DNA from: Nocardia nova SH22a
Lineage (GTDB): Bacteria > Actinomycetota > Actinomycetes > Mycobacteriales > Mycobacteriaceae
Direction of reading: 5' to 3'
Assembly (NCBI RefSeq): GCF_000523235.1
Contig: NZ_CP006850.1
Span: forward strand, 2,728,001 to 2,792,000
DNA length: 64,000 nucleotides
Position numbers and translations under genes: made by a program. This document shows positions 33,952-64,000 of the stretch, piece after piece. Below the pieces are notes generated by a model. That model was given only the letters and a program-made list of their open reading frames with translations. It made no database searches and was not told the origin of the DNA. Positions within the stretch are counted from its first letter, which is position 1; each line of letters begins with the position of its first letter.

Positions 33952-35150
33952 GAATCATCCCTTCCCGCTTCGGAATTGCTCCGATGCCGCGTGGCACCAC
34001 CGTCGAAGGTACCTTCGATGCGATCGAGCAGAATCTCGAGCCGTCCGGCGATCCCGCGCCCGTTGCGCGCGGCCACCGAAAGCTCGGTGCGACCCCCGGC
34101 CTCGACCATCGTGAACAACAGCGGAGTCACCACATCGTGCTGCGGAAACACTTGCACCGCGGTCGGTTTCCAGCCCGGGACCGCCCAGTCGTCGAGATCG
34201 ACCCGGCCCAGGTGGGAGATGGTCGCGGAGGTCAGATTGCGCCCGCGCCGCGCACCGATCCGGTTGCCGGTGCGCAGCAGTGTCCGCATGACGGGTGCGG
34301 GAATGTTCGCGATGGCAGGCGAAGCGAGCTGGTCGAGTTCGCGGTCCTCGCTCAGCTTCTCCCACATCGCCGCGTAGACGGCCTGCCACGGCTGGCCGGG
34401 CGCGATATCGAGCAGCAGTGGCAGCGCGAGATTCGCGGTGGAGCGCACGTTCTCGTCGTGGCGGCGCAGATCGACCGGCACCATGATGCGGGCCGGTGTG
34501 CCCGCGTGATCGGCGAGCAGTGCCGCCAGCCGCGCCACCGCCCGCGTCGAGACGCCCGCAATGCTGCGGTGCCGCAACAGATGCCGGGGCTCGCCGCGTT
34601 CCTGACGCCCGTGCCCGGCCGCGGACCGGTAGTGCGCGGGCATCTTCGGCGCCGCCCGTCCGGGGCGTCCCACCCGCTGTATCAGCTGCTCGTCGGCGAC
34701 GGGATCGGTGAGGACGTGCGGTTGCTCGCCGCGCAGGACAGCGAACACGCTGCGCGCCCACAGCATCATCCCGCCGCCGTCCATCACACCGTGGAAGACC
34801 CGGAAGATCACTGTGACCGGATCGCCGGTCAGCAGCACGACCTCGCAGGTCGCGTCCGGCAGCGGGCTGCCGAGCAGTGAATCCTGTTCCAGGCGCGCGT
34901 AATCGAGCACATGTCCGGCGACCTCCCGGACCGGCGGCGGTGTCTCGGTGTCGACCCAGAACCGTCCTTCGCGCCGCAACCGCGCACCGGGACACACCGA
35001 CGCCGCCACCCGCACCGCCTCGCGGAGCCGGTCGGCGGTGAGCTGTCCACTGCCCGGCACCACCATCTGCATGAGGAACGGCGGCGCCAGATCCCGCATC
35101 GGGAAATACATGTACTCCGTCGGCGACAGTGGCCGGAACACCGTGCCCAT
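33948..35150 (-). CDS. Condensation/PapA-like acyltransferase
   Basis: This 400-residue protein resembles the alcohol acyltransferase / nonribosomal-peptide condensation superfamily. The catalytic HxxxD motif is FHGVMDGGGM, His near residue 117 and Asp near 121. A C-terminal latch-like region is present (SAVQVFPQHDVVTPLLFTMVEAGG). PapA5-type enzymes in mycobacteria esterify lipids with acyl groups. Here it probably transfers an acyl group from CoA to a hydroxyl put on the terpene by the operon's P450s (inference). ATG 35150 overlaps the TGA of the prenyl synthase gene (ATGA); its own stop overlaps the next start. The frame continues upstream, but that part is antisense-like to the preceding gene. 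Confidence 0.8.
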   Translation of the reverse strand: MGTVFRPLSPTEYMYFPMRDLAPPFLMQMVVPGSGQLTADRLREAVRVAASVCPGARLRREGRFWVDTETPPPVREVAGHVLDYARLEQDSLLGSPLPDATCEVVLLTGDPVTVIFRVFHGVMDGGGMMLWARSVFAVLRGEQPHVLTDPVADEQLIQRVGRPGRAAPKMPAHYRSAAGHGRQERGEPRHLLRHRSIAGVSTRAVARLAALLADHAGTPARIMVPVDLRRHDENVRSTANLALPLLLDIAPGQPWQAVYAAMWEKLSEDRELDQLASPAIANIPAPVMRTLLRTGNRIGARRGRNLTSATISHLGRVDLDDWAVPGWKPTAVQVFPQHDVVTPLLFTMVEAGGRTELSVAARNGRGIAGRLEILLDRIEGTFDGGATRHRSNSEAGRDDS

Positions 35151-36193
35151 CAACAGATCCCGTCCGCCGCGAACTCCGCACCCAGCATGGCGGCGACCAG
35201 ATCCGCCAGTTCCGCGCGGGCGGCCGGAACCAGGTCGATGTCCTTGAGCTCGCGCCACGCGGCCTCGACCCGGCGGATGATCTCGGCGCGCGTCCATTCC
35301 CGGGCGCCGGTGCCGGTGATCAGATCCGCCAGCAGAGCGGTGTCGATATCGTCGAATTCGGCTTCACCCGCGTACATCTCACGTATCCGGGCCGCCACCG
35401 CACTGTCGGCGGTGAGTGCGAACGTCACCGGTGCGCTCTTGCGGCGGGCCCGCAGATCCGATCCCGCGGGTCTGCCGGTGAGTGCCGTATCGCCCCAGAT
35501 GTCGAGCAGATCGTCCACGAGCTGGAACGCCACTCCGAGCTGGGTGCCGAAGCGGTCGAAGCGGTCGCCGAGATCGGTTGCGGCCGAACCGAAGTGCACG
35601 CCCAACCGGCAGGCGCAACCGAACAGGGTTCCGGTTTTGCCGGTGAGGGTGTCCAGGCAGTCTGCCACACTCACCTGTGCCCGGGCGCTGGCCGACAGGT
35701 CGCTGTCCTGTCCGTGACCGAGACGGCGCAGCGTGGCCGCCAGTTGCGCCAGCGCGCGCCCGGCCGCCGGATGCGGCTGGCTGCCGAGTACCTCGAATCC
35801 CAGGCCGATCATGGCGTCACCGGCGAGGATGGCCTCTGGAATCCCGAATCGCGCCCACACCGTGGGCCGATGGCGGCGCTCCCGATCACCGTCCATGATG
35901 TCGTCGTGGATGAGAGAGGCGTTGTGCAGCAACTCGATTGCCGTCGCCGACGGGATCGCGTCGCGCGGCCGCACACCGGCGGCCTCGGCGCACAGCAGGG
36001 TGAACGCGGGTCTGAGCAGCTTTCCGCCGACCACGCCGGTCGGCGTCCCGTCCGGATCGGTCATGCCCAGCTGGTATCCGCACATGTGCCGCAGGCGGCC
36101 GTCGAGCCTGCCGATCCATTCGTCCAGGACCGGCAGCAGGTGCGTGCGCGTTCGTGACAGCACCGGCAGTGCCGTGGGGGAGGTGACGGTCAC
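35150..36193 (-). CDS. Polyprenyl diphosphate synthase (probably geranylgeranyl type)
   Basis: This 347-residue trans-isoprenyl diphosphate synthase has a first aspartate-rich motif DDIMD (about 96-100) and a second DDLLD (about 226-230), both complete. The lysine and arginines for IPP binding (GGKLLRP) are near residue 58. The residues four and five before the first motif are Ser and Ala, both small, which in this family permits chains beyond C15; GGPP is the likely product, with farnesylgeranyl not excluded. GTG 36193 overlaps the terpene synthase TGA (GTGA). It should supply the substrate of the neighbouring cyclase. It differs from the GPP needed by the 2-methylisoborneol pathway at 58-62 kb. 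Confidence 0.9.
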   Translation of the reverse strand: MTVTSPTALPVLSRTRTHLLPVLDEWIGRLDGRLRHMCGYQLGMTDPDGTPTGVVGGKLLRPAFTLLCAEAAGVRPRDAIPSATAIELLHNASLIHDDIMDGDRERRHRPTVWARFGIPEAILAGDAMIGLGFEVLGSQPHPAAGRALAQLAATLRRLGHGQDSDLSASARAQVSVADCLDTLTGKTGTLFGCACRLGVHFGSAATDLGDRFDRFGTQLGVAFQLVDDLLDIWGDTALTGRPAGSDLRARRKSAPVTFALTADSAVAARIREMYAGEAEFDDIDTALLADLITGTGAREWTRAEIIRRVEAAWRELKDIDLVPAARAELADLVAAMLGAEFAADGIC

Positions 36194-37218
36194 CGGCTCA
36201 CCTTTCGCCCGGCCACCGCGTCCACCAGCGCCGATTCCAGATACTGCGCCGGAGTGCCGCTGCCGCCCAGGGTATCCCGGTATCGCCGGGTCTCCGCCGA
36301 CCAATCGAGATTGCCGCGCATCCACGACCGCATTCCCGCCAGATATCCGGCCAGTTCCTCCGCGTGCTCGGGCCATGCCGCCAGGACACGGGGCTGCAGT
36401 TCCGTGAACTCCGCGAGCCGGTCGACGATCCGGGTCATGGTCGTCTCGAGGGCGGCGGTCCGGCTCACCCGGTCCCAATGTTCGTGCAGCGACACCAGAT
36501 TGTGGTATTCGCCGAGTGCCGCCTCCTTGTCCACCGAGAACACGTCGTTGGTCCAGCACACGACATCGCAGGCGGCATCGAGTGTCCGGGTGAACAGCTC
36601 ACCGGTGTAGACACCGTCGGGAAGTTCGATGCGCTCGACGATTTCGATGAGATCCATACACGGATAGATCGCGCCGGTGTGCCTGCGCTGCGTCACATAC
36701 TCCGCGTCGGACGGCACGGTCGCGTGCACGCGATTGTCGGCCTCCCACACCGCCGCCAGCGCACACCGGGTGGCATGGTCGATGAAGCGGCGCCGCCAGA
36801 CCGGGCCGGTGACCGGTGTGGTGCGCTCCCACAGATCGGCCAGGGCCCGCACGATCATCGGGGCATCCGGTTCGATCGGCCGGTCGCCCACCACGTCCAG
36901 AATCGACGCCATCAGGGCCGCCAGCCGCTCCGGCGCGTGGCCGATCACACCGTCGTCGAGCTGATCGTCGAGCAGGAAGAACCAGGCGAACCAGTCCGCG
37001 GTGAGGTCGAGGGCCGCGGCGTCGGCGGTGGGGTACACCAGGGCCGCGAAGGCGCCGAAATCGGCGCGCGCGAACCGATCCCGGGCCGCCTCGCGCACCA
37101 CCAGGCCCTGGGCGGCGACCCAGTCGTTCACATGCCGGATCGCGGTGACGGCGTGTGGATTCTGCTGTGGCGCCAGGGCGTCGAACGCCGCGGCGAAGGT
37201 GTCGGGGGTGAGGGTCAT
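36190..37218 (-). CDS. Class I terpene synthase
   Basis: This 342-residue bacterial class I terpene cyclase has a first metal motif LLDDQLDDG (DDxxD type, about 82-87). The pyrophosphate-sensing arginine pair is in QRRHTGAI. The NSE triad is NDVFSVDKE (about 223-231), and the C-terminal RY pair is in ETRRYRDTL. All catalytic residues for Mg-dependent ionisation are present. An adjacent GGPP-type synthase points to a diterpene product, though sesquiterpene or sesterterpene are possible. The sequence does not resemble geosmin or 2-methylisoborneol synthases. ATG 37218 overlaps the TGA of the P450 gene (ATGA). Confidence 0.92.
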   Translation of the reverse strand: MTLTPDTFAAAFDALAPQQNPHAVTAIRHVNDWVAAQGLVVREAARDRFARADFGAFAALVYPTADAAALDLTADWFAWFFLLDDQLDDGVIGHAPERLAALMASILDVVGDRPIEPDAPMIVRALADLWERTTPVTGPVWRRRFIDHATRCALAAVWEADNRVHATVPSDAEYVTQRRHTGAIYPCMDLIEIVERIELPDGVYTGELFTRTLDAACDVVCWTNDVFSVDKEAALGEYHNLVSLHEHWDRVSRTAALETTMTRIVDRLAEFTELQPRVLAAWPEHAEELAGYLAGMRSWMRGNLDWSAETRRYRDTLGGSGTPAQYLESALVDAVAGRKVSR

Positions 37219-38585
37219 CGGCGCTCCAGACGCAGTCGCAGCCCGTGTTTGGGACGCAGGGTGATCAGCTGGTCGAATTCGATCGGCGGCTCGTCGTCCG
37301 CGACACTCATTCGGAACGACCGCAGGATCATCGACACGATGATCATCAATTCCGTGACGGCGAAATGCTTTCCGATGCAATGGCGCGGACCGCTCGCGAA
37401 CGGCACGTAGGCGTTCTTCGGCCGGGCGGCGACGGCATCGGGCCGGAATCGCTCCGGATCGAACCGGTCGGGATCCGGCCAGAAGTCCGGATGCCGGTGC
37501 AGGGTATGGAAATTGATGTAGATGTCGGTTCCGGCGGGAATCCGGTAGTCGCCCACCAGATCCTCGCGCACCGCGTGCCGCATGGTCTGCCAGGCCGGGC
37601 TGTAGAGCCGCAGCACCTCGTCCACGACCATGCGGGTGTAGGTCAGCCGGTGCAGATCCTCGAAAGCGGGTGTGCGCCCGCCCAATTCGGTAGCGAGTTC
37701 GGCGGCCATCCGCTCCTGGACATCGCCGCGGCGGGCCAGCACCTGGAGCATGAAGGCGACCGAATTCGCGGTGGTCTCGTAACCGCCGACCATCACATTG
37801 CCCACTTCGTCGCGCAACTGCAGGGCCGACATCGGCTCGCCGGTCTCCACATCGACCGCCTCGGCCAGGATATTGAGCAGTGTCATCTCACCGTCGCGGC
37901 GCTCCTCGATCTGACGGGCCACGAAATCCTGCACCCCGACGATCAGCCGCATCAACCGGCGGTTGCGCGGTGTCGGAAAGTTCAAGGGCGGGAACGGGAA
38001 ACGGAAATAGTTGCCCATGATCTCGTTGGTGAGCGTGAAATCCCGCTCCATCTGCTCGGTGTCGCGGATGTCGAGTCCGAACACCGTGCGCATGACGATG
38101 CGCAACACCACGCGGGTGAGGTCCGGCAGCAGATCGGTGACCTCGCCGTCGGTGTGCCGATCGGACCAGCGCTCCACCATCGTCGCGGTCTCCTCGACCA
38201 TGCCCGTGGTGAACTTGGCGATCTTGGGCCGGTGGAACGACGGCTGCATGAGCCGGCGATGCCGTTGCCACAGCTCCCCGCCGATCGCCCCGATCAGCCC
38301 GTCCCGCAACGCCGGTCGCACGGTCTTGTAGATCAGCGAATTCTTGTTGTAGTTCTCGCGATTCTCGACCAGCACCCGCTGCACGTAGTCGGGATGGTTG
38401 ACCACGACGATCGGATATCCCAGCACCCGGATCCGAAAGATGTCCCCGTGCCGGTCGATCGCACGCTTCAAACAGGCGAGCTGATCCCGCTGGAACGATC
38501 GGAACTCCACGATCTGCTCCAGTGGACTCTGCCCCGGAATCCGGCGTGCCGATACCGCCGGGTTGGTCAGGCTGACGGCCCCCAT
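37215..38585 (-). CDS. Cytochrome P450 (first gene of terpenoid operon)
   Basis: This 456-residue P450 has canonical motifs throughout. The I-helix is VMVGGYETTANS (about 264-275), the K-helix is ExxR in VVDEVLRLYSP, the meander is FDPERFRPD, and the heme loop is FASGPRHCIGK (about 395-405). The layout resembles bacterial CYP102/CYP4-like monooxygenases that oxidise fatty acids or terpenes. It is therefore the conventional oxygenase of the pathway, in contrast with the atypical P450 at the operon's end. ATG 38585 has GGAGAGGA upstream at good spacing; a TTG two codons earlier lies inside the spacer. An iron-box-like site is 29-48 bases upstream. Confidence 0.95.
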   Translation of the reverse strand: MGAVSLTNPAVSARRIPGQSPLEQIVEFRSFQRDQLACLKRAIDRHGDIFRIRVLGYPIVVVNHPDYVQRVLVENRENYNKNSLIYKTVRPALRDGLIGAIGGELWQRHRRLMQPSFHRPKIAKFTTGMVEETATMVERWSDRHTDGEVTDLLPDLTRVVLRIVMRTVFGLDIRDTEQMERDFTLTNEIMGNYFRFPFPPLNFPTPRNRRLMRLIVGVQDFVARQIEERRDGEMTLLNILAEAVDVETGEPMSALQLRDEVGNVMVGGYETTANSVAFMLQVLARRGDVQERMAAELATELGGRTPAFEDLHRLTYTRMVVDEVLRLYSPAWQTMRHAVREDLVGDYRIPAGTDIYINFHTLHRHPDFWPDPDRFDPERFRPDAVAARPKNAYVPFASGPRHCIGKHFAVTELMIIVSMILRSFRMSVADDEPPIEFDQLITLRPKHGLRLRLERR

Positions 38586-56020: not shown

Positions 56021-56491
56021 ATGCAGTTGTCGCGGTTCACCGATCTCGGGCTGCGGGCGATGATGCGGCTCGCGGTGAGCAGTGGCGCCGAGGAGCGGGT
56101 GACCGCGAAACTGATCGCCCGCCAGGTCAACGCCTCCGAGCACTATGTGGCCAAGGCCGTGACCAAGCTGTCCGACCTGGGATTGGTCGCCTCGCAGCGA
56201 GGCCGTGCGGGCGGGATCTTCCTCACCGACGCGGGCCGCGCCGCGACCGTCGGGCAGATCGTGCGGGGACTCGAGGGCTCGGCCGAGGTGGTCGACTGTG
56301 TCGGTGACCATCCCTGCCCGCTGGCGGGAGCCTGCCGTCTGCGGCGAATCCTCGCGCAGGCGCAGGAATCGTTCTATCTCGAACTCGACCGCTACACTCT
56401 CCGCGATCTCGTCGACCGGAGAACTCAGCAATTACTGCATCTGTCGGCCTCGCCGGAATTGCCTTTCGGCGGGCATCCCGGTGATATCTGA
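56021..56491 (+). CDS. nsrR: Nitric-oxide-sensing Rrf2 repressor
   Basis: This 156-residue Rrf2-family protein carries the NsrR cluster-binding pattern. Three cysteines are spaced C-x5-C-x5-C in VVDCVGDHPCPLAGAC (about residues 92-104), and Asp8 (RFTDLGLR) completes a [4Fe-4S] site as in Streptomyces NsrR. The winged helix is VTAKLIARQVNASEHYVAKAVTKLSDLGLV (about 26-55). NO destroys the cluster and releases DNA. The flavohemoglobin gene follows 228 bases downstream with a matching palindrome, the expected target. It is divergent from ilvA. Confidence 0.92.
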   Translation: MQLSRFTDLGLRAMMRLAVSSGAEERVTAKLIARQVNASEHYVAKAVTKLSDLGLVASQRGRAGGIFLTDAGRAATVGQIVRGLEGSAEVVDCVGDHPCPLAGACRLRRILAQAQESFYLELDRYTLRDLVDRRTQQLLHLSASPELPFGGHPGDI

Positions 56492-56520
56492 GAAATCCCG
56501 TCCTCGGTAGGGTCTTTCGT

Positions 56521-56543
56521 AACATGCTGCGCCGCAGTCTGTT
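56521..56543 (+). promoter_or_regulatory. Probable NsrR operator upstream of hmp
   Basis: The 23 bases have the 11-1-11 layout of NsrR sites: AACA..CTGCG on the left (56521-56531), one central C, and CGCAG..TGTT on the right (56533-56543). Nine of eleven arm positions are complementary. A possible -10, CTATAT, lies at 56564-56569, so the site would cover the -35. Confidence 0.6.
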
Positions 56544-56719
56544 CCGTGCATCAGCGGGTCCGGCTATATGCGGCGGAAAATGTGGTGCGGGCAACATAAA
56601 CCGCATTCGGAACCGTAATTGAACGCACGGCCGCGGAAATGGATTCGGCGCCGCAGGAATGGTTACCGTGGGATTCGTCCGGTGATTCACCGGAATCAAT
56701 GCTCGAAGAGGAGTTTCCC

Positions 56720-57952
56720 ATGACGACCGCGTCGACCTCGGCCCTGGACACCGTTGCCGAACTCGAACCACAGCACACCGACACCGTGCGCGCGACCCTG
56801 CCGGTGATCGCGGCGCGGATCGACGACATCACCGCCGAGTTCTACCGCCGCCTCTTCGCCGCACACCCCGATCTGCTGCGCAACACCTTCAATCGCGGCA
56901 ATCAGGCCCAGGGCGAGCAGCAGCGCGCGCTGGCCGCCTCGATCGCCACCTTCGCCACCCACCTGGTCGATCCGGCCCTGCCGCACCCGCGGCAGCTGCT
57001 CTCGCGGATCGGGCACAAACACGCCTCCCTGGGCGTGGTCCCCGAACAGTATCCGGTGGTCCACGAACACCTGTTCGCGGCGATCGTGCACGTCCTCGGC
57101 GAGGCCGTGACACCCGAGGTGGCCGCCGCGTGGGACCGCGTCTACTGGCTGATGGCCGACACCCTCATGGGATTCGAGCGCGAACTCTACGACGGCGCGG
57201 GCGTCGCGCCGGGCGCGGTCTTCCGGGAGGTCCGGGTCGTCGACCGGATCGACGATCCCGCCGCCACCGCGACCTTCGTCGTCGAGGCGACCGGCGATGA
57301 TCCGCTGCCGGATTTCGTTCCGGGGCAATATGTCTCGGTGGGCGCGGACCTTCCCGACGGCGCCCGGCAGCTGCGTCAGTACAGCCTGGTCAACGCGCCC
57401 GGCGCCGGTCGGCTGGCCTTCGCGGTGCGCCGCGTGACCGGTGTGGACGGCCGCCCGGACGGGGAGGTGTCGTCGTGGTTGCACGACGACGTGGCCGTGG
57501 GCGACCGCCTGCAGATCACGCTGCCGTTCGGCGATCTGACCATCGACAACGCCGCGAGCACGCCGCTGGTCCTGATCTCCGCGGGCATCGGCGCCACCCC
57601 GATGGTGGGCATCCTCGAATATCTGGCCGCCACCGGATCACAGCGGCAGGTACTGGCATTGCACGCCGACCGGTCCGCGGCGACCCACCCGCTGCGGGCG
57701 CTGCAGGCCGAGCTGGTGTCCGCGCTCCCACGGGCCGGCCTGCAGGTCTGGTACGAGGAGGGCGCGGCGCCCGCGCACACCGGCCTGCTGTCGCTGACCG
57801 GTGTGGACCTGCCCGCCGACGCCGATGTGTACCTGTGCGGCGGCACCGGCTTCCTGCAGGCCGCCCGCGCCCAGGTGCGGGCCGCGGGCATCGCCGACGA
57901 GCGGATCCATTTCGAGCTGTTCGCACCCAACGACTGGTTGCTCGACGCCTGA
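56720..57952 (+). CDS. hmp: Flavohemoglobin (nitric oxide dioxygenase)
   Basis: This 410-residue three-domain NO dioxygenase has a globin domain (about 1-150). Tyr B10 is in FYRRLF, and the proximal His is in SRIGHKHASLG near 98. An FAD domain holds RQYSL (near 218), and an NAD(P)H domain has SAGIGATPMVGIL (near 290) and the C-terminal FELFAPNDWL. It turns NO and O2 into nitrate. ATG 56720 has AGAGGAG at good spacing; earlier in-frame starts lie in the promoter region. It is regulated by the upstream nsrR gene very probably through the palindrome at 56521-56543. It converges on idi four bases on. Confidence 0.96.
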   Translation: MTTASTSALDTVAELEPQHTDTVRATLPVIAARIDDITAEFYRRLFAAHPDLLRNTFNRGNQAQGEQQRALAASIATFATHLVDPALPHPRQLLSRIGHKHASLGVVPEQYPVVHEHLFAAIVHVLGEAVTPEVAAAWDRVYWLMADTLMGFERELYDGAGVAPGAVFREVRVVDRIDDPAATATFVVEATGDDPLPDFVPGQYVSVGADLPDGARQLRQYSLVNAPGAGRLAFAVRRVTGVDGRPDGEVSSWLHDDVAVGDRLQITLPFGDLTIDNAASTPLVLISAGIGATPMVGILEYLAATGSQRQVLALHADRSAATHPLRALQAELVSALPRAGLQVWYEEGAAPAHTGLLSLTGVDLPADADVYLCGGTGFLQAARAQVRAAGIADERIHFELFAPNDWLLDA

Positions 57953-57956
57953 CCGA

Positions 57957-58520
57957 TCAGCCGCCGGAGCGCGCCGTGGCCAGAACGCCCTGCAGCCACG
58001 GCGTGAAATCCTCAGGGGCCGAGGCGATATCGGTGGCGAGCCGATCCGGATCCACCCATCGCAGCCCGCCCACCTCCGCGGCGTCCGGATCGGCGGGCAG
58101 GCCCTCGAATCCGCCGATCAGAACGTGGTCCCATTCGTCCTCGACCCGTCCGGTCGCCGGATCGGCGGCCCGGTAGCGGTACACACCGACCTCGCGCAGT
58201 TCCGCCCGCACCCGCAGCTCCTCACCCAGCCGCACGGCCGCGGCCTCGGTGACGGGCTGTCCCGGCGCCGGATGCCCGCAACAGGTGTTGGACCAGCGCA
58301 GCGGGAACCGCGTCTTGACCGCGGCACGCTGCTGCAACAGGACCCGGCCGTCCGGCCCGAACAGCAGGACGGAGAAGGCGCGATGCAGGCGTCCCGGGGC
58401 GGTGTGTGCGTCGGACACCGCGAGGGCGCCGATCGCGCCTCCCTGCTCGTCGACGAGTTCGACGGGCAGGGATTCGCGGTCGGCGGTGATATCGGGGGAG
58501 GTGGTGTGGGTGCCGGTCAC
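57957..58520 (-). CDS. idi: Isopentenyl-diphosphate isomerase, type 1
   Basis: This 187-residue Nudix-fold enzyme interconverts IPP and DMAPP. The catalytic Cys is in WSNTCCGHP (near 80), and the Glu is in VEDEWDHVLIGG (near 126). The Nudix-like helix (AAAVRLGEELRV) is present. GTG 58520 overlaps the methyltransferase stop (GTGA), which makes it the last gene of the encapsulin / 2-methylisoborneol operon. It should keep up DMAPP supply for geranyl diphosphate formation. The N-terminal 15 residues are a Thr/Ser-rich extension. Confidence 0.95.
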   Translation of the reverse strand: MTGTHTTSPDITADRESLPVELVDEQGGAIGALAVSDAHTAPGRLHRAFSVLLFGPDGRVLLQQRAAVKTRFPLRWSNTCCGHPAPGQPVTEAAAVRLGEELRVRAELREVGVYRYRAADPATGRVEDEWDHVLIGGFEGLPADPDAAEVGGLRWVDPDRLATDIASAPEDFTPWLQGVLATARSGG

Positions 58521-59389
58521 CTCCCTACCTTATCGGCGGCGATCAGCAGGTATTGGAAACTGCCCTCGCGGTAGGAGGTCAGGAACGGTTCCTCCACCCC
58601 CGTCGCGAGCTCGCATTCGGTGCGCAACTCCCAGTACGGAATGGTCGCCGGAGTGAGATCGGTGACCGTGATGGGGATCAGCCCATTGGCGGTCATCGCC
58701 CGGAAGTACTCGCCGCGCGGGTGGATCATGCAGCCGTAGTGGGCGTCGATCCAGCTCACCGCCGCCGCCCGGCCACCGGTCACATCGTTGGAGCAGCCGG
58801 TGACGCAGACGTAGCGCCCGCCGGGTTCCAGCAGCCGCGAGAATTCGGCGAACAGATCCGGCAGGTCGACGTACATGTCGGTCTCGTTGGTCCAGATACC
58901 GCGCATGGATCCGGAGTCGAATCCGGTGTCGAGCATATTGCGGTAGTGGAATTCCACCTGATCGCTCACACCCCGCTCGGCGGCCTGATCGTTGGCGAAT
59001 CCGACCTGGTATTCGGAGATGCTCACCCCGTCGACCCGGCAGCCGAAGCGCGCGTTGGCCATGAAACTGGTGCCGCCGCGACCGGAACCGGCGTCCAGGA
59101 GCCGGTCCCCGGGACCCACATCGCCGAGATGGTCCAGCAGGAAATCGGCCTGCGCGGTCTCGAGCCGGTGCAGTTCGGCGACGATCCGCTCCTGACGGGT
59201 CTCCTCGGGACCCTCGAGGACCGACCAGTCGGGCTCGCCGATGCCGTAGTGATGGTGGTACAGCCCGTCGACCGCGCCCAGTTCGGTATTGACGCGGTCG
59301 TCGTTGGGATTGTCGTTCCAGTAGGCGGCGACGGACCGCTGATAATTCGTGTGCAGGACACCGTCGGTCTCGGGCTGAAGTACGGTCAT
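58517..59389 (-). CDS. Geranyl diphosphate 2-C-methyltransferase
   Basis: This 290-residue SAM enzyme methylates C2 of geranyl diphosphate, the first dedicated step to 2-methylisoborneol. It has HTNYQRSVAAYWNDNPNDDRVN at the start, SAM motif I RLLDAGSGRGGTSFMANA (near 93), MYVDLPDLFAEFSRLLEPGG, and a C-terminal substrate pocket with WELRTECELATG. The best-known relative is SCO7701 of Streptomyces coelicolor. ATG 59389 has GGAGAGG upstream. It lies 52 bases after the synthase gene in one operon with idi, whose start overlaps its stop. Confidence 0.93.
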   Translation of the reverse strand: MTVLQPETDGVLHTNYQRSVAAYWNDNPNDDRVNTELGAVDGLYHHHYGIGEPDWSVLEGPEETRQERIVAELHRLETAQADFLLDHLGDVGPGDRLLDAGSGRGGTSFMANARFGCRVDGVSISEYQVGFANDQAAERGVSDQVEFHYRNMLDTGFDSGSMRGIWTNETDMYVDLPDLFAEFSRLLEPGGRYVCVTGCSNDVTGGRAAAVSWIDAHYGCMIHPRGEYFRAMTANGLIPITVTDLTPATIPYWELRTECELATGVEEPFLTSYREGSFQYLLIAADKVGR

Positions 59390-59441
59390 CGCAGATCATC
59401 CTCTCCATCGGTCGGTACTGCTGGTGGAACGCAACTCGGTG

Positions 59442-60722
59442 TCAGGTGTGATCGTGGTAGCGGCGGCTGTCGGCGTGCCAGGCGCGATTGCCGCCCATCC
59501 ACGCCCACAACCCTTCGAGGAATCGGCGCTGCGGCGGTGACGCGGTCGCCACCCAGGCCGCCGCCTCGGCCTCGAAGCGATGGACCAGCTCGTCGTGGAC
59601 GGCCGCGGTGCGCTGCACGGCCTCGCGCCGGGAACAGCCCTCCTCCGCCGCGAGGACCGTCGGCAGATTGAATTCCCTTCCGCCGGAAAGGTCTTCGCGC
59701 GCCATCGAATACAGATCGTTGACCATCTGCGCGGCCAGGGCGGCGGTGGTGACCGCGCGCCGCATGCGGGGATCACAGTAGCCGTCCGCGTCGAGGCGGT
59801 AGCCGCCGACCGCGTCGATCGGCGCCATACACGGCAGGAAGCTGTGCGGCTGGCGGTTGGCCAGATACTCCCAGACCGGGGGCATCCGCCCGGCCGCCCG
59901 CCAGCCCGCCTCGGCGCCCAGCGCGATGAACCAGCCGCCGATCTCGGTGCGCAGCCGGGCCAGTTGCGTGGGATCGGCGTAGTGCGCGAGGTGTTCGAAG
60001 GAGGTGCGGAAGGCCCGCAGGATCGGATCGGCGCCCAGAGCGCGGTCCAGCTGGATCTGGTACCGCGCCGGAAGTTCGACGGGATCCATTGTGGCCATGG
60101 CCAATTCGAGACGGGGGCCCAGCTCCGCCTCCGCACTCGACTCGGTGCCGTCGGGTGCGTGATCGTCGGCGTCCTCCTCGCAGTAGTAGTCGTCCACCGA
60201 CCATTCCGAGACAGCGCACTTCGCCGCCGCCAGTAATCGGTCGGCATCGTCGCAATCGGGATGGGCGAGCATGATCAGGCGTCCGAAACCCGCCTTGGCC
60301 AGCTCGTCCAACCGGCCCTCGTAGAGTCCGATCTCGGTGGCCCACTGCAGGATTCCCTCGTCGACCGCCGCCGCGAGCCCGGGATCGTCGCGAGCCGGTG
60401 GCGGGCAGTACAGCGGCGGGATATCCGATCGGCTGCCACCGGCGGGCGCTGACTCGGAGGTGTCCGGACCGGCCGGAACGGCGGACACGGCCGGGGGACC
60501 GGGCAGCCGATGTGGCAGTCGCAGTCCCGAGGTGCCGAGTCCGGTCGGGCCGAGCAGTCCCCGCGGAACCACACCCGTGACCATGGTGTGGACGGTGACC
60601 GGAGCGCCCGGCACCGGCATCCGGGCCGGGGGAGCGTGGTCGAAGGTGCCGAGCAGTGCGGCGATCACACCGGCCAGATCATCACCGGACGGTGGCGCCG
60701 CGGCACGCGAAAGTACCGACAT
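59442..60722 (-). CDS. 2-Methylisoborneol synthase, probable encapsulin cargo
   Basis: This 426-residue class I terpene cyclase turns 2-methyl-GPP into 2-methylisoborneol. The metal motif DDYYCEED (about 177-184) has the Cys/Glu form typical of 2-methylisoborneol synthases rather than DDxxD. The NSE motif is NDLYSMARE (about 335-343), and the RY pair is in SRRYHD. Before the cyclase domain lie about 110 residues of Pro/Gly/Ala-rich, disordered sequence containing GPTGLGTSGLRLP (about 58-70). This matches the conserved TGLGTS-type motif regarded as the cargo-loading peptide for family 2B encapsulins. ATG 60722 lies 14 bases after the shell gene. The enzyme should therefore sit inside the compartment. 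Confidence 0.93.
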   Translation of the reverse strand: MSVLSRAAAPPSGDDLAGVIAALLGTFDHAPPARMPVPGAPVTVHTMVTGVVPRGLLGPTGLGTSGLRLPHRLPGPPAVSAVPAGPDTSESAPAGGSRSDIPPLYCPPPARDDPGLAAAVDEGILQWATEIGLYEGRLDELAKAGFGRLIMLAHPDCDDADRLLAAAKCAVSEWSVDDYYCEEDADDHAPDGTESSAEAELGPRLELAMATMDPVELPARYQIQLDRALGADPILRAFRTSFEHLAHYADPTQLARLRTEIGGWFIALGAEAGWRAAGRMPPVWEYLANRQPHSFLPCMAPIDAVGGYRLDADGYCDPRMRRAVTTAALAAQMVNDLYSMAREDLSGGREFNLPTVLAAEEGCSRREAVQRTAAVHDELVHRFEAEAAAWVATASPPQRRFLEGLWAWMGGNRAWHADSRRYHDHT

Positions 60723-60736
60723 CCGTGCTCACCCCG

Positions 60737-62143
60737 TCAATCGCTCTGCCGCGCGACGGCCACATTGTCCAGAATTCCCAGCGCGTCCGGAACGAGGACG
60801 GCGGCGGAGTAGTAACAGCTGACCAGATACGAGATGATCGATTGATCGTCGATTCCCTTGAATCGCACGTTCAGGCTCGGCTCGAATTCGTCCGGAATGC
60901 CGGTCTGATGCAGGCCGACCACGCCCTGTTCCTTCTCCCCGACCCGCATCGCGAGAATGGATGTGGTCTGCGTTTCGCTGACCGGAATCTTTCCGCACGG
61001 CAGGATCGGCACGCCGCGCCATGCCGGTATCCGGCGGCCGTCGATATCGACCGGATCGGGATACAGGCCGAGTTTGTTGCATTCCCGGCCGAATGCGGCG
61101 ATCGCCTTCGGGTGTGCGAGAAAGAATTTGGTGCTGCGCCGCATGCTCAGCAGCTCGTCGAGATCGTCCGGGGTGGGCGGACCGGACTCGGTGTAGATGC
61201 GCTGTTTGAGATCGCAATTGTTCAGCAGTCCGAAGTCGGGGCTGTTGACCAGGTCGTATTCGCGGCGCTCGTGCAGCGCCTCGACGGTGAGCCGCAGTTG
61301 CTGTTCGATCTGGTTGTGCGGATCGTTGAACAGGTCGGCGACGCGGGTGTGCACCCGCAGCACACTCTGTGCCGCGCCGAGTTCGTATTCGCGCGGTGAG
61401 CTGTCGTAATCGACGAAGGTGCCGTCCAGTAGCGGTTCACCGGCGTGCCCGGAGGTGATCTCGATATTCGCCTCACCGTATTTGTTCTGCGGCCGGACCG
61501 GTGAATCCGCGAGCCGGGACAGATGATCACCCAGAATCGGCGCCTGTTCCACCAGCCGGTCGAATGCGGTGCGCGGCAGCGTCAGCAGGGTCACCGGGGT
61601 GAGGGTTTTGACGGTGACCGGCCAGATGGCATCGCGATCGGTGAGCATGGCATCGCCGAAATAGTCACCGTCGCCGAGCATGCCGAGTTTGGTGGACTCG
61701 CCGTATTCGCCGGTGCCGATCTTGCCGAGTTTCCCGTGCACGATCAGCATCAGCTGATCCATCGGATTCCCGAATTCGGCGATCACCGATCCCGGTTCGA
61801 GATCGCGCTGGACGAACTGCCGCGCCATCGCCGCCAGGACCTCCTCGTCCTCGACCTCGCGCAGCGCGGGCAGTTCCCGCAGCTCCAGCGGTATGACGTG
61901 GGCGTGCGCGCCGTCGATCACGAATTCCACCTCGCCGTTGCCGACGGTGTGGGTGAGGCGGCGGTTGACCCGGTAGACACCGCCCTCGACCTGCGTCCAC
62001 GGCAGCATCCGGGTGAGCCAGCGCGAGGAGATGCCCTGCATCTGGGGCTCGGATTTGGTGGTGTGCGCGAGCTGATGGGCGGCGGTGGTGGACAGGGACT
62101 TGCGGACGTGGTTGTCGGTCTGGACGGGGAGTTCGAGTGTCAT
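60737..62143 (-). CDS. eshA: Family 2B encapsulin shell protein with cyclic-nucleotide-binding-type domain (EshA-like)
   Basis: This 468-residue HK97-fold shell protein of the EshA/SrpI-related family 2B has an N-terminal arm ([20 protein letters not shown]). An inserted CNB domain follows (about 110-200, [29 protein letters not shown]). The E-loop/P-domain comes next ([59 protein letters not shown]), and the C-terminal strand ends [12 protein letters not shown]. In the CNB domain the phosphate-binding cassette reads [15 protein letters not shown] (about 160-174). The usual Glu is Asp and the usual Arg is Ile, so cyclic nucleotide binding may be weak or lost. It is first in the operon and directly followed by the synthase. 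It self-assembles into an icosahedral shell in relatives. Confidence 0.92.
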
Positions 62144-62552: not shown

Positions 62553-64000
62553 TTGAAATTCGATACGAGAGCCCTCACCGGGCCCGCGCGGCGGTTGATG
62601 GCGACCGCGCAGAACGGCCTGGAGGTCATCCGGTTCGGCGGTCTGGCCCACGATGTGGAGTCCTCGCCCTACGAGGTCACCGAACGCAAGCGCATGTACC
62701 GGCTGCGGCACTACTTCCCGGACGATCCCGCGCCCGGCCGCCCGGTGGCCCTGCTGGTGCCGCCGCTGATGGTCAATGCCGACATCTACGACGTCAATGC
62801 CGAGGGCGGTGCGGTCGGCATCCTGCACCGCGCCGGAATCGATTGCTGGGTCCTGGATTTCGGATCCCCGGCCACCGAGGAGGGCGGGTGGCAGCGTGAT
62901 CTGGCCGATCACATCCTGGCCCTGTCGAGCGCGATCGACACCGTCAACGAACTGACCGGCCACGCGGTCCACCTGATGGGCTACTCACAGGGCGGCATGT
63001 TCGCCTATCAGACCACCGCCTTCCGCTACGGCAAGGGCGTGCAGAGCATCGTCACCTTCGGCAGTCCGGTCGACATCGTGGCGGGGCTGCCGTTCGGGCT
63101 GCCCTACGGACTGGTGTCGGAGGTCGCCGACTTCGTCGCCGATCACGTCCTCAACCGCCTGCCGATCACCGACTCCATGGTGCGGGTCGGTTTCCAGATG
63201 CTCGATCCGGTGAAGACGGCCAAGGCGCGCATCGACTTCCTGCGCCAGCTGCACGACCGGGAGGCGTTGCTGCCCAAGGAACGTCAGCGCCGGTTCCTCG
63301 AACGCGACGGCTGGGTGGGCTATTCCGGCCCGGCCGCCGCCGATCTGCTCAAGCAGTTCGTCGCGCACAACCGGATGATGTCCGGCGGCTTCGTCATTCG
63401 CGATCAGCCGGTGTCGCTGGCCGAACTCAAATGCCCGATTCTCGCGTTCGTCGGCGAGGTCGACGATATCGGCCAGCCCGCGGCGGTGCGCGGTATCGTG
63501 CGTGCCGCCCCCAATGCCGAGGTCTACGAGGCATCCGTGGTGGCCGGGCATTTCGGCCTGGTGGCCGGAAGTACGGCGACGAATCAGACCTGGCCCCTGG
63601 TCCGGGACTGGGTGAACTGGCAGGACGGCAACGCGGCGCTGCCGGAACAGATCGCCCCCATGCGCGAACATGTCGCCACCGACCGGCAGACCACCGCGGC
63701 CACCCGGGTCGTGCACACCGCGGCCTCCCTCGCCGAGGCCGGCGCCGGAATCGGCGCCGCACTGGGCGGGCTGGCCGGTAACGCGCTGCGCGGATCGAGG
63801 GAGCTCACCGGCGAGGCCGCGCGTGCGCTGCCCCGGCTGACCCGGCTCGGCATGATCCAGCCGCACACCCGGATCTCACTGGGCCGCCTGCTAGCCGAAC
63901 AGCAGCGCAACGCGCCGCTGCGGGATCTGTTCCTGTTCGACGACCGGGTGCATTCGCACGCCGCGGTCGGCGCCCGGATCGACAATGTGGTGCGCGGGCT
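62553..64000 (+). CDS. Alpha/beta-hydrolase (PhaC-like) fused to an acyl-CoA synthetase-like domain, partial
   Basis: The gene begins with TTG 62553 preceded by GGGAG, and runs off the right edge after 482 codons. Residues about 1-385 are an alpha/beta-hydrolase of the PhaC-like class, with the nucleophile elbow HLMGYSQGGMFAY (near 143), the acid in VGEVDDIGQPA (near 300) and His in VAGHFGLV. The last visible residues (RISLGRLLAEQQRN, FLFDDRVHSHAAVGARIDNVV) resemble the start of an AMP-forming acyl-CoA synthetase. A fused hydrolase-ligase of about 1,000 residues, as seen in some mycolata FadD proteins, is expected. The second half is outside the window, so the fusion is an inference. Confidence 0.75.
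   Translation, partial: MKFDTRALTGPARRLMATAQNGLEVIRFGGLAHDVESSPYEVTERKRMYRLRHYFPDDPAPGRPVALLVPPLMVNADIYDVNAEGGAVGILHRAGIDCWVLDFGSPATEEGGWQRDLADHILALSSAIDTVNELTGHAVHLMGYSQGGMFAYQTTAFRYGKGVQSIVTFGSPVDIVAGLPFGLPYGLVSEVADFVADHVLNRLPITDSMVRVGFQMLDPVKTAKARIDFLRQLHDREALLPKERQRRFLERDGWVGYSGPAAADLLKQFVAHNRMMSGGFVIRDQPVSLAELKCPILAFVGEVDDIGQPAAVRGIVRAAPNAEVYEASVVAGHFGLVAGSTATNQTWPLVRDWVNWQDGNAALPEQIAPMREHVATDRQTTAATRVVHTAASLAEAGAGIGAALGGLAGNALRGSRELTGEAARALPRLTRLGMIQPHTRISLGRLLAEQQRNAPLRDLFLFDDRVHSHAAVGARIDNVVRG

Follow-up and report, generated by a model that had tools for sequence, protein, structure and literature searches.

The closest described counterparts of the system studied here come from Streptomyces: EshA of S. 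griseus is reportedly a family 2B encapsulin with 2-methylisoborneol (2-MIB) synthase as its cargo, and the structures PDB 9bhu, 9bix and 9bje presumably represent Streptomyces family 2B shells of the same EshA/2-MIB kind. Here we analyse a four-gene locus in Nocardia nova SH22a that encodes a shell, a terpene synthase (TS), a geranyl diphosphate (GPP) 2-C-methyltransferase (MT) and a type 1 isopentenyl-diphosphate isomerase (Idi, gene idi). It lies in a window of 64,000 nucleotides (the whole stretch of DNA analysed, positions 2,728,001 to 2,792,000 of contig NZ_CP006850.1); copies were also sought throughout the 8.35 Mb one-contig genome. A GPTGLGT consensus in the leader of such synthases and its possible role in targeting have already been published (PMC8346489).

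We read the locus, with a probability of about 0.8, as an operon of the family 2B encapsulin type, with one shell, that makes a methylated C11 terpenoid; the synthase would be loaded through its leader, and idi is a resident of the site and not a dedicated part of the compartment. According to this scheme, MT would methylate GPP in the cytosol, the synthase would be packed into the shell by its disordered leader, chiefly through the element GPxGLGT, and the packed enzyme would cyclise 2-methyl-GPP inside. The isomerase, read from the end of the operon, would raise the dimethylallyl diphosphate (DMAPP) available for GPP from the methylerythritol phosphate (MEP) pathway.

The operon and its conservation

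The four genes follow one another on the minus strand, from 62143 down to 57957 in the ORF list of the window, in the order shell, TS, MT and idi (Table 1). Shell and TS are separated by 14 bases (60723-60736) and TS and MT by 52 (59390-59441), while MT and idi overlap by 4 bases (58517-58520). The original prediction had described four co-directional genes with just these gaps and overlap, and ORF coordinates and NCBIfam scores agree with it, so that the observation of the operon is confirmed, for a kind of system that was already known. The proposed families hold as well: the shell exceeds the cut-off of NF041163 and shows the SrpI-like and cyclic nucleotide (cNMP)-binding domains in Pfam, and the assignments of a 2-MIB synthase (2-MIBS)-type enzyme, MT and type 1 Idi are backed by NF041167, NF041943 and NF002995, all above cut-off. 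Idi falls marginally below the cut-off of a further model, TIGR02150 (104.7 against 105.8); it holds NTCCGHP and DEWDHV, which we take to be the catalytic motifs of type 1 Idi.

The shell matches 9bje, 9bix and 9bhu with 595-610 bits, its residues 12-463 aligning with 9bje, and next to it stands a cargo-type enzyme with a disordered terminal region, the TS leader, as expected of family 2B. A second shell gene, which would mark a two-component family 2B system, was not found: the genome-wide search gave one full-length shell, a second match covering the cNMP part only. Both a second full shell and a second isomerase had been considered for this genome, and neither turned up in the genome-wide searches.

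The arrangement is widespread in the genus. Among named genomes the scan picked up 61 loci, of which 60 belong to Nocardia. A shell accompanies the TS relative in 59 of the 60 (the exception, L005, is a contig that starts at TS) and idi follows MT in 56, which shows that the arrangement is not due to chance; the four loci without idi (N. caishijiensis, rosealba, ignorata and coubleae) form one clade on the tree of HYD, the gene divergent from the shell. In a second sample of 148 Nocardia genomes we counted as MIB-type shells the listed matches with 69% identity or more, a few of which carry a stop or a break. Among the matches listed, such shells occur in 99 genomes and idi in 141, the other 7 having no type 1 match; MT is intact in 95. 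The matches listed for the other 49 genomes contain neither an intact MT, nor a TS of the operon type, nor an unlinked TS with a leader; in at least 8 of these genomes they do include different 2B shells, of 44-58% identity. TS relatives were also sought in a wider sample of 394 genomes of the class, from which 37 regions were fetched.

Three loci, L003 (N. veterana), L007 (N. africana) and L120, represent operon decay with idi retained: TS is intact and the start of MT truncated, and in L007 and L120 the shell is broken too.

Leader and product of the synthase

In the AlphaFold model of the synthase (33 sequences) the cyclase domain is well modelled, and confidence (pLDDT) falls below 50 at residues 1-13 and 40-98, with a short helix between them; M1, S2, R6, L23 and L24 of the leader are invariant in 33 aligned Nocardia sequences. 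The motif GPTGLGTS falls within the second of these stretches and matches the published consensus, in agreement with the proposal of a disordered leader with a TGLGTS-type motif. Many named Nocardia TS relatives are already annotated as encapsulin cargo.

The pattern P.GLG[TSA] is present in 50/55 operon leaders (0.5 expected by shuffling), in 17/17 leader-bearing TSs encoded away from the operon in Nocardia (0.04 expected) and in 20/21 leaders of other actinobacteria, against 0/10 leaderless relatives. Named loci with incomplete leaders (L005, L058, L059, L060 and L062) were left out of these counts and L057 was placed with the other actinobacteria; leader starts were picked by script and may be off by a few residues.

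Several observations weigh against loading by such a leader. The strict motif is missed by 5 of the 55 named operon leaders (GIG replaces GLG in four and GVG in one) and by 4 of the 8 leaders of g67, a different genus from a different family. Eight short (~350 aa) leaderless members of the TS family occur in genomes of g52 (L238, L239, L241-L243 and L245-L247), and 7 of them adjoin MT and a shell of 52-55% identity; with leaderless TSs beside shell and MT, loading by a leader does not hold for every operon of this kind. Finally, a different role has been described for the leader in S. coelicolor, where it reduces the activity of the enzyme and helps it to stay soluble over the long term (PMC10520479). 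These last two points are what one would expect if the leader were a solubility or gatekeeper domain and its linkage to a shell regulatory or accidental. We consider this highly improbable: the motif is retained in all 17 unlinked Nocardia TSs that have a leader, and among the matches listed every one of these lies in a genome that also has a MIB-type shell. Outside Nocardia, four motif-bearing TSs have no intact shell in or near the fetched stretch (L214, L217, L225 and L229), but their genomes hold full-length 2B shells elsewhere, whereas the one genome with no shell match, G654, has a leaderless TS.

As to the product, the locus combines a GPP 2-C-methyltransferase with a 2-MIBS-type cyclase whose metal motifs are intact in the alignment, and judging from these sequences a methylated C11 terpenoid, most likely 2-methylisoborneol, is to be expected. 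In Foldseek the model of the synthase comes closest to 4zq8, with 34% identity and a TM-score of 0.91 by target length; identity to the 2-MIBS structures of S. coelicolor is 35-36%, 3v1v having a TM-score of 0.89 by target length and a sequence match of 198.8 bits. This distance leaves some room for another methylated monoterpene, e.g. 2-methylenebornane, as does the long branch of the TS tree that separates the Nocardia operon enzymes from a clade with 14 g52 enzymes; 2-MIB and 2-methylenebornane synthases moreover use the same substrate, 2-methyl-GPP (PMC5908152). We nevertheless find a product other than 2-MIB rather unlikely: the metal motifs are intact, though this is not decisive on the product, and 2-MIB clusters have been reported in other Nocardia by cluster matching, that is as predictions only (PMC9007811, PMC13391507).

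The isomerase gene as a probable resident of the site

The original prediction gave the compartment its own isomerase and saw the supply of five-carbon (C5) units as tied to compartment production. The 4-base overlap with MT makes co-transcription of idi with the operon likely, and speaks for a dedicated gene. So do the comparison of gene neighbourhoods, where idi follows MT in the 56 Nocardia loci given above and shell-TS-MT-idi recurs in 8/8 g67 loci, with a further idi elsewhere in 7 of the 8 g67 genomes, and the published enrichment of Idi in terpene-cyclase operons (PMC8346489). The same comparison gave no match to idi in the fetched g52 regions (0/27); g52 is probably Streptomyces, because the TS of the named Streptomyces locus L057 groups with a g52 enzyme.

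A dedicated isomerase would be expected as an extra copy, gained and lost with the operon. In Nocardia the two are separable: the window genome has a single type 1 copy among the genes found and no type 2 isomerase above cut-off, and, among the matches listed, 46 of the 49 genomes that have no MIB-type shell retain idi and 4 genomes with such a shell lack it. Within the 99 shell genomes idi lies within 8 kb of the shell in 91 and on another contig or far off in 4, the remainder being the 4 without it (again among the matches listed). On the idi tree the Nocardia copies from inside and outside operons are intermingled. The idea of a dedicated component is thus unlikely, and the claim that the operon has "its own" isomerase is not supported, on the same counts.

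The neighbourhoods indicate what idi is instead. It adjoins HYD in all 17 genomes fetched out of the 46 that keep idi without a MIB-type shell, with 162-588 bases between the aligned parts; the shell-TS-MT block therefore sits between HYD and idi when it is present. In L113, L114 and L116 the block has been lost, yet the 3' end of MT remains next to idi. The HYD tree (99 rows, with some near-duplicates) calls for 10 changes of shell state, of which supported branches force at least 6. The tree also has a basal lineage without a shell, with which a single insertion followed by repeated loss and an ancestral block are both compatible. All in all, idi appears to belong to the site itself and not to be a dedicated component of the compartment.

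The g67 loci tell a different story, their operon idi grouping with g52 and g16 idi, apart from that of Nocardia. Forcing Nocardia and g67-operon idi into a single clade lowers the log-likelihood by 119.6 (p-AU 2.7e-115, with some long branches); on this result and on the mixing of operon and non-operon Nocardia copies, transfer of idi between genera as a mobile part of the operon was rejected. That two unrelated idi genes end the same operon suggests that isomerase supply is useful to the pathway. The window genome has the MEP pathway, as its two IspH genes above cut-off attest; with this pathway Idi is helpful and not essential. GPP takes one DMAPP per isopentenyl diphosphate, a larger share of DMAPP than in any other of the usual prenyl diphosphates, which fits the usefulness of isomerase supply. 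The proposed tie between C5 supply and the compartment thus survives as a possible benefit of supply, with some support from the different idi of g67, while a compartment-specific role is not supported.

Proposed exchange of the cargo in relatives

Among the 95 Nocardia genomes with intact MT, 16 have an operon TS that is absent or fragmentary among the matches listed. In three more (G025, G027 and G127) the operon TS is in two pieces, possibly through assembly or sequence error, and no unlinked TS is among the matches listed. In 16/16 TS-broken genomes vs 1/76 TS-intact ones the matches listed include an unlinked TS of 35-43% identity whose leader is of the GPxGLGT type (Fisher p 5.4e-17, or 2.9e-14 when the two-piece TSs are scored as broken; both tests ignore relatedness). 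G106, which has an intact operon TS and a leaderless relative, was not counted. On the MT tree (59 Nocardia genomes, excluding G103 with its truncated MT) TS loss requires 9 changes on the best tree and at least 5 on well-supported branches. A sign test on 5 independent pairs drawn on supported branches gave the same direction in 4.5/5 on average and never the opposite, with a median p of 0.0625, 5 pairs being unable to reach 0.05.

The unlinked TSs group together in a single clade, distinct from the operon TSs; this clade also includes two non-Nocardia rows and the leaderless L209 on a long branch. They do not have the N-terminal MSxLSR segment of the operon enzymes, and all 5 that were tested exceed the encapsulin-cargo cut-off. 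Their metal motifs are kept (n=17), with E-to-D in the NSE triad of 12; an initial reading that these 12 lack the triad was discarded, the alignment showing this conservative change instead. No intact shell or MT was found near them in the fetched stretches (0/17; L200 has shell fragments), and their neighbourhoods are alike only within close subgroups.

We propose tentatively, and at slightly less than even odds, that shell and MT serve as a stable chassis on which the synthase is exchangeable, a TS of the other clade being supplied in trans and presumably loaded through its GPxGLGT leader. The operons themselves offer a further candidate player, a leader-only ORF, which lacks an entire cyclase domain, located between shell and MT and starting 15-20 bases past the shell stop, in 9 of the 16 TS-less operons (L097, L099, L100, L101, L103, L104, L105, L107 and L210; the other 7 have none). 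Its loading motif is intact or changed, and such ORFs may act in the shell as plugs or competitors. For the clearest pair, L097/L101, the ratio of nonsynonymous to synonymous substitution rates (dN/dS) is 0.57 over 73 codons, vs 0.10 for MT, weak evidence that fits decay as well as function.

Alternatively, shell and MT may be mere leftovers, or the unlinked TS may be unpackaged or housed in another shell. The leader-only ORFs indeed resemble decay products, and 5 of the 16 genomes (G008, G048, G059, G066 and G077) have, among the matches listed, another MIB-type shell elsewhere with which the unlinked TS could be paired, which also counts against loading into the operon's shell. On the other side, the matches to shell and MT span almost their whole length in 16/16 TS-less operons, the MT dN/dS of 0.10 points to strong constraint, all 16 replacement TSs keep the motif, and in 11 of the 16 genomes the operon's MIB-type shell is the only one among the matches listed. 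This alternative is doubtful, less so than the others weighed above, and exchange of the cargo on a retained chassis is the reading that we favour. Our literature search, whose coverage excluded most subscription papers and preprints, turned up no earlier account of a family 2B cargo being replaced in trans.

In all, second MIB-type shells, of 70-80% identity, are among the matches listed elsewhere in the genomes G008, G036, G041, G048, G059, G066, G073, G077, G094 and G122.

Gene features and surroundings

Table 1. Features of the encapsulin locus, with positions in the window
Feature	Position	Strand	Basis
Family 2B encapsulin shell	60737..62143	-	468 aa; NF041163 731.5 bits, cut-off 400 (NCBIfam)
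cNMP-binding-type domain of shell, residues 113-200	61544..61807	-	PF00027 (Pfam)
SrpI-like (HK97-type) shell domain, residues 216-464	60752..61498	-	PF19307 440.7 bits (Pfam)
2-MIB-synthase-type terpene cyclase (TS), predicted cargo	59442..60722	-	426 aa; NF041167 542.6 bits, cut-off 400
Candidate loading motif GPTGLGTS, TS residues 58-65	60528..60551	-	sequence; inside disordered leader
Short predicted helix in leader, TS residues 16-25	60648..60677	-	AlphaFold model
Aspartate-rich metal motif DDYYCEED, TS residues 177-184	60171..60194	-	sequence
NSE-type metal triad NDLYSMARE, TS residues 335-343	59694..59720	-	sequence
Geranyl diphosphate 2-C-methyltransferase (MT)	58517..59389	-	290 aa; NF041943 483.5 bits, cut-off 400
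Type 1 isopentenyl-diphosphate isomerase (idi)	57957..58520	-	187 aa, GTG start; NF002995 180.1 bits, cut-off 127
HYD, divergent from shell	62553..64000, runs off window	+	NF005898 800.2 bits over the half held, cut-off 925 missed

HYD, whose best model is the acyl-CoA synthetase PRK07868 and whose N-terminal half is polyhydroxyalkanoate (PHA)-synthase-like, is a marker of the site and lies outside the pathway. On the other side, 56021-57952 (+) holds an Rrf2-family regulator (best model NsrR) and a flavohemoprotein-like gene, convergent with idi and both below their model cut-offs; they are perhaps a nitric-oxide response pair. The pair adjoins idi in only part of the relatives, and ilvA lies beyond it.

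The window also contains a second terpene synthase at 36190-37380 (-), whose best NCBIfam model, isoafricanol synthase, reaches 197.5 bits, below the cut-off of 500. Adjoining it is a polyprenyl diphosphate synthase at 35150-36559 (-), for which the best model is a family 2 encapsulin polyprenyl cargo (356.2 bits, missing the cut-off of 450). The only full shell found in the genome, that of Table 1, is not at this synthase pair.

Comparison with known systems

The window locus is ordinary for its kind. Its relatives provide a natural experiment on family 2B cargo choice, in the form of strains that combine shell and MT with an unlinked, motif-bearing synthase, and such strains bear on the GPxGLGT leader as a loading signal and on shells as a reusable chassis. 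The findings on idi warn against taking operon membership for dedication: beside terpene encapsulin operons idi can be a retained resident in one genus and have been added separately in another.

With the EshA-type system of Streptomyces the locus shares the close match of the shell to 9bhu, 9bix and 9bje, the shell-TS-MT order seen in most g52 regions and the GPTGLGT leader motif (PMC8346489), but it differs by the idi that ends the Nocardia operon, seen in none of the g52 regions, and by a TS that shares only 36% identity with the enzyme of S. coelicolor. The latter, 2-MIBS of S. coelicolor (3v1v), is alike in fold, metal motifs and Pro-rich disordered leader (PMC10520479), and apart from its limited identity it is unlike in that the Nocardia product is a prediction only. 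The S. lydicus terpene synthase 4zq8 is the best match by fold, a structural likeness that carries no assignment of function. The two-component system of S. lydicus likewise has a family 2B shell with a cNMP-type insertion in its E-loop, which in S. lydicus binds no cyclic nucleotide (PMC12407261), whereas one full-length shell gene was found in the Nocardia genome. Lastly, the proposed supply of a synthase in trans resembles the secondary cargo of family 1 encapsulins encoded outside the operon, such as BfrB of M. tuberculosis (PMC8346489), where a tag recruits the cargo in trans; in the Nocardia relatives, however, the shell is of family 2B and it is the main cargo of the operon that appears to have been replaced.

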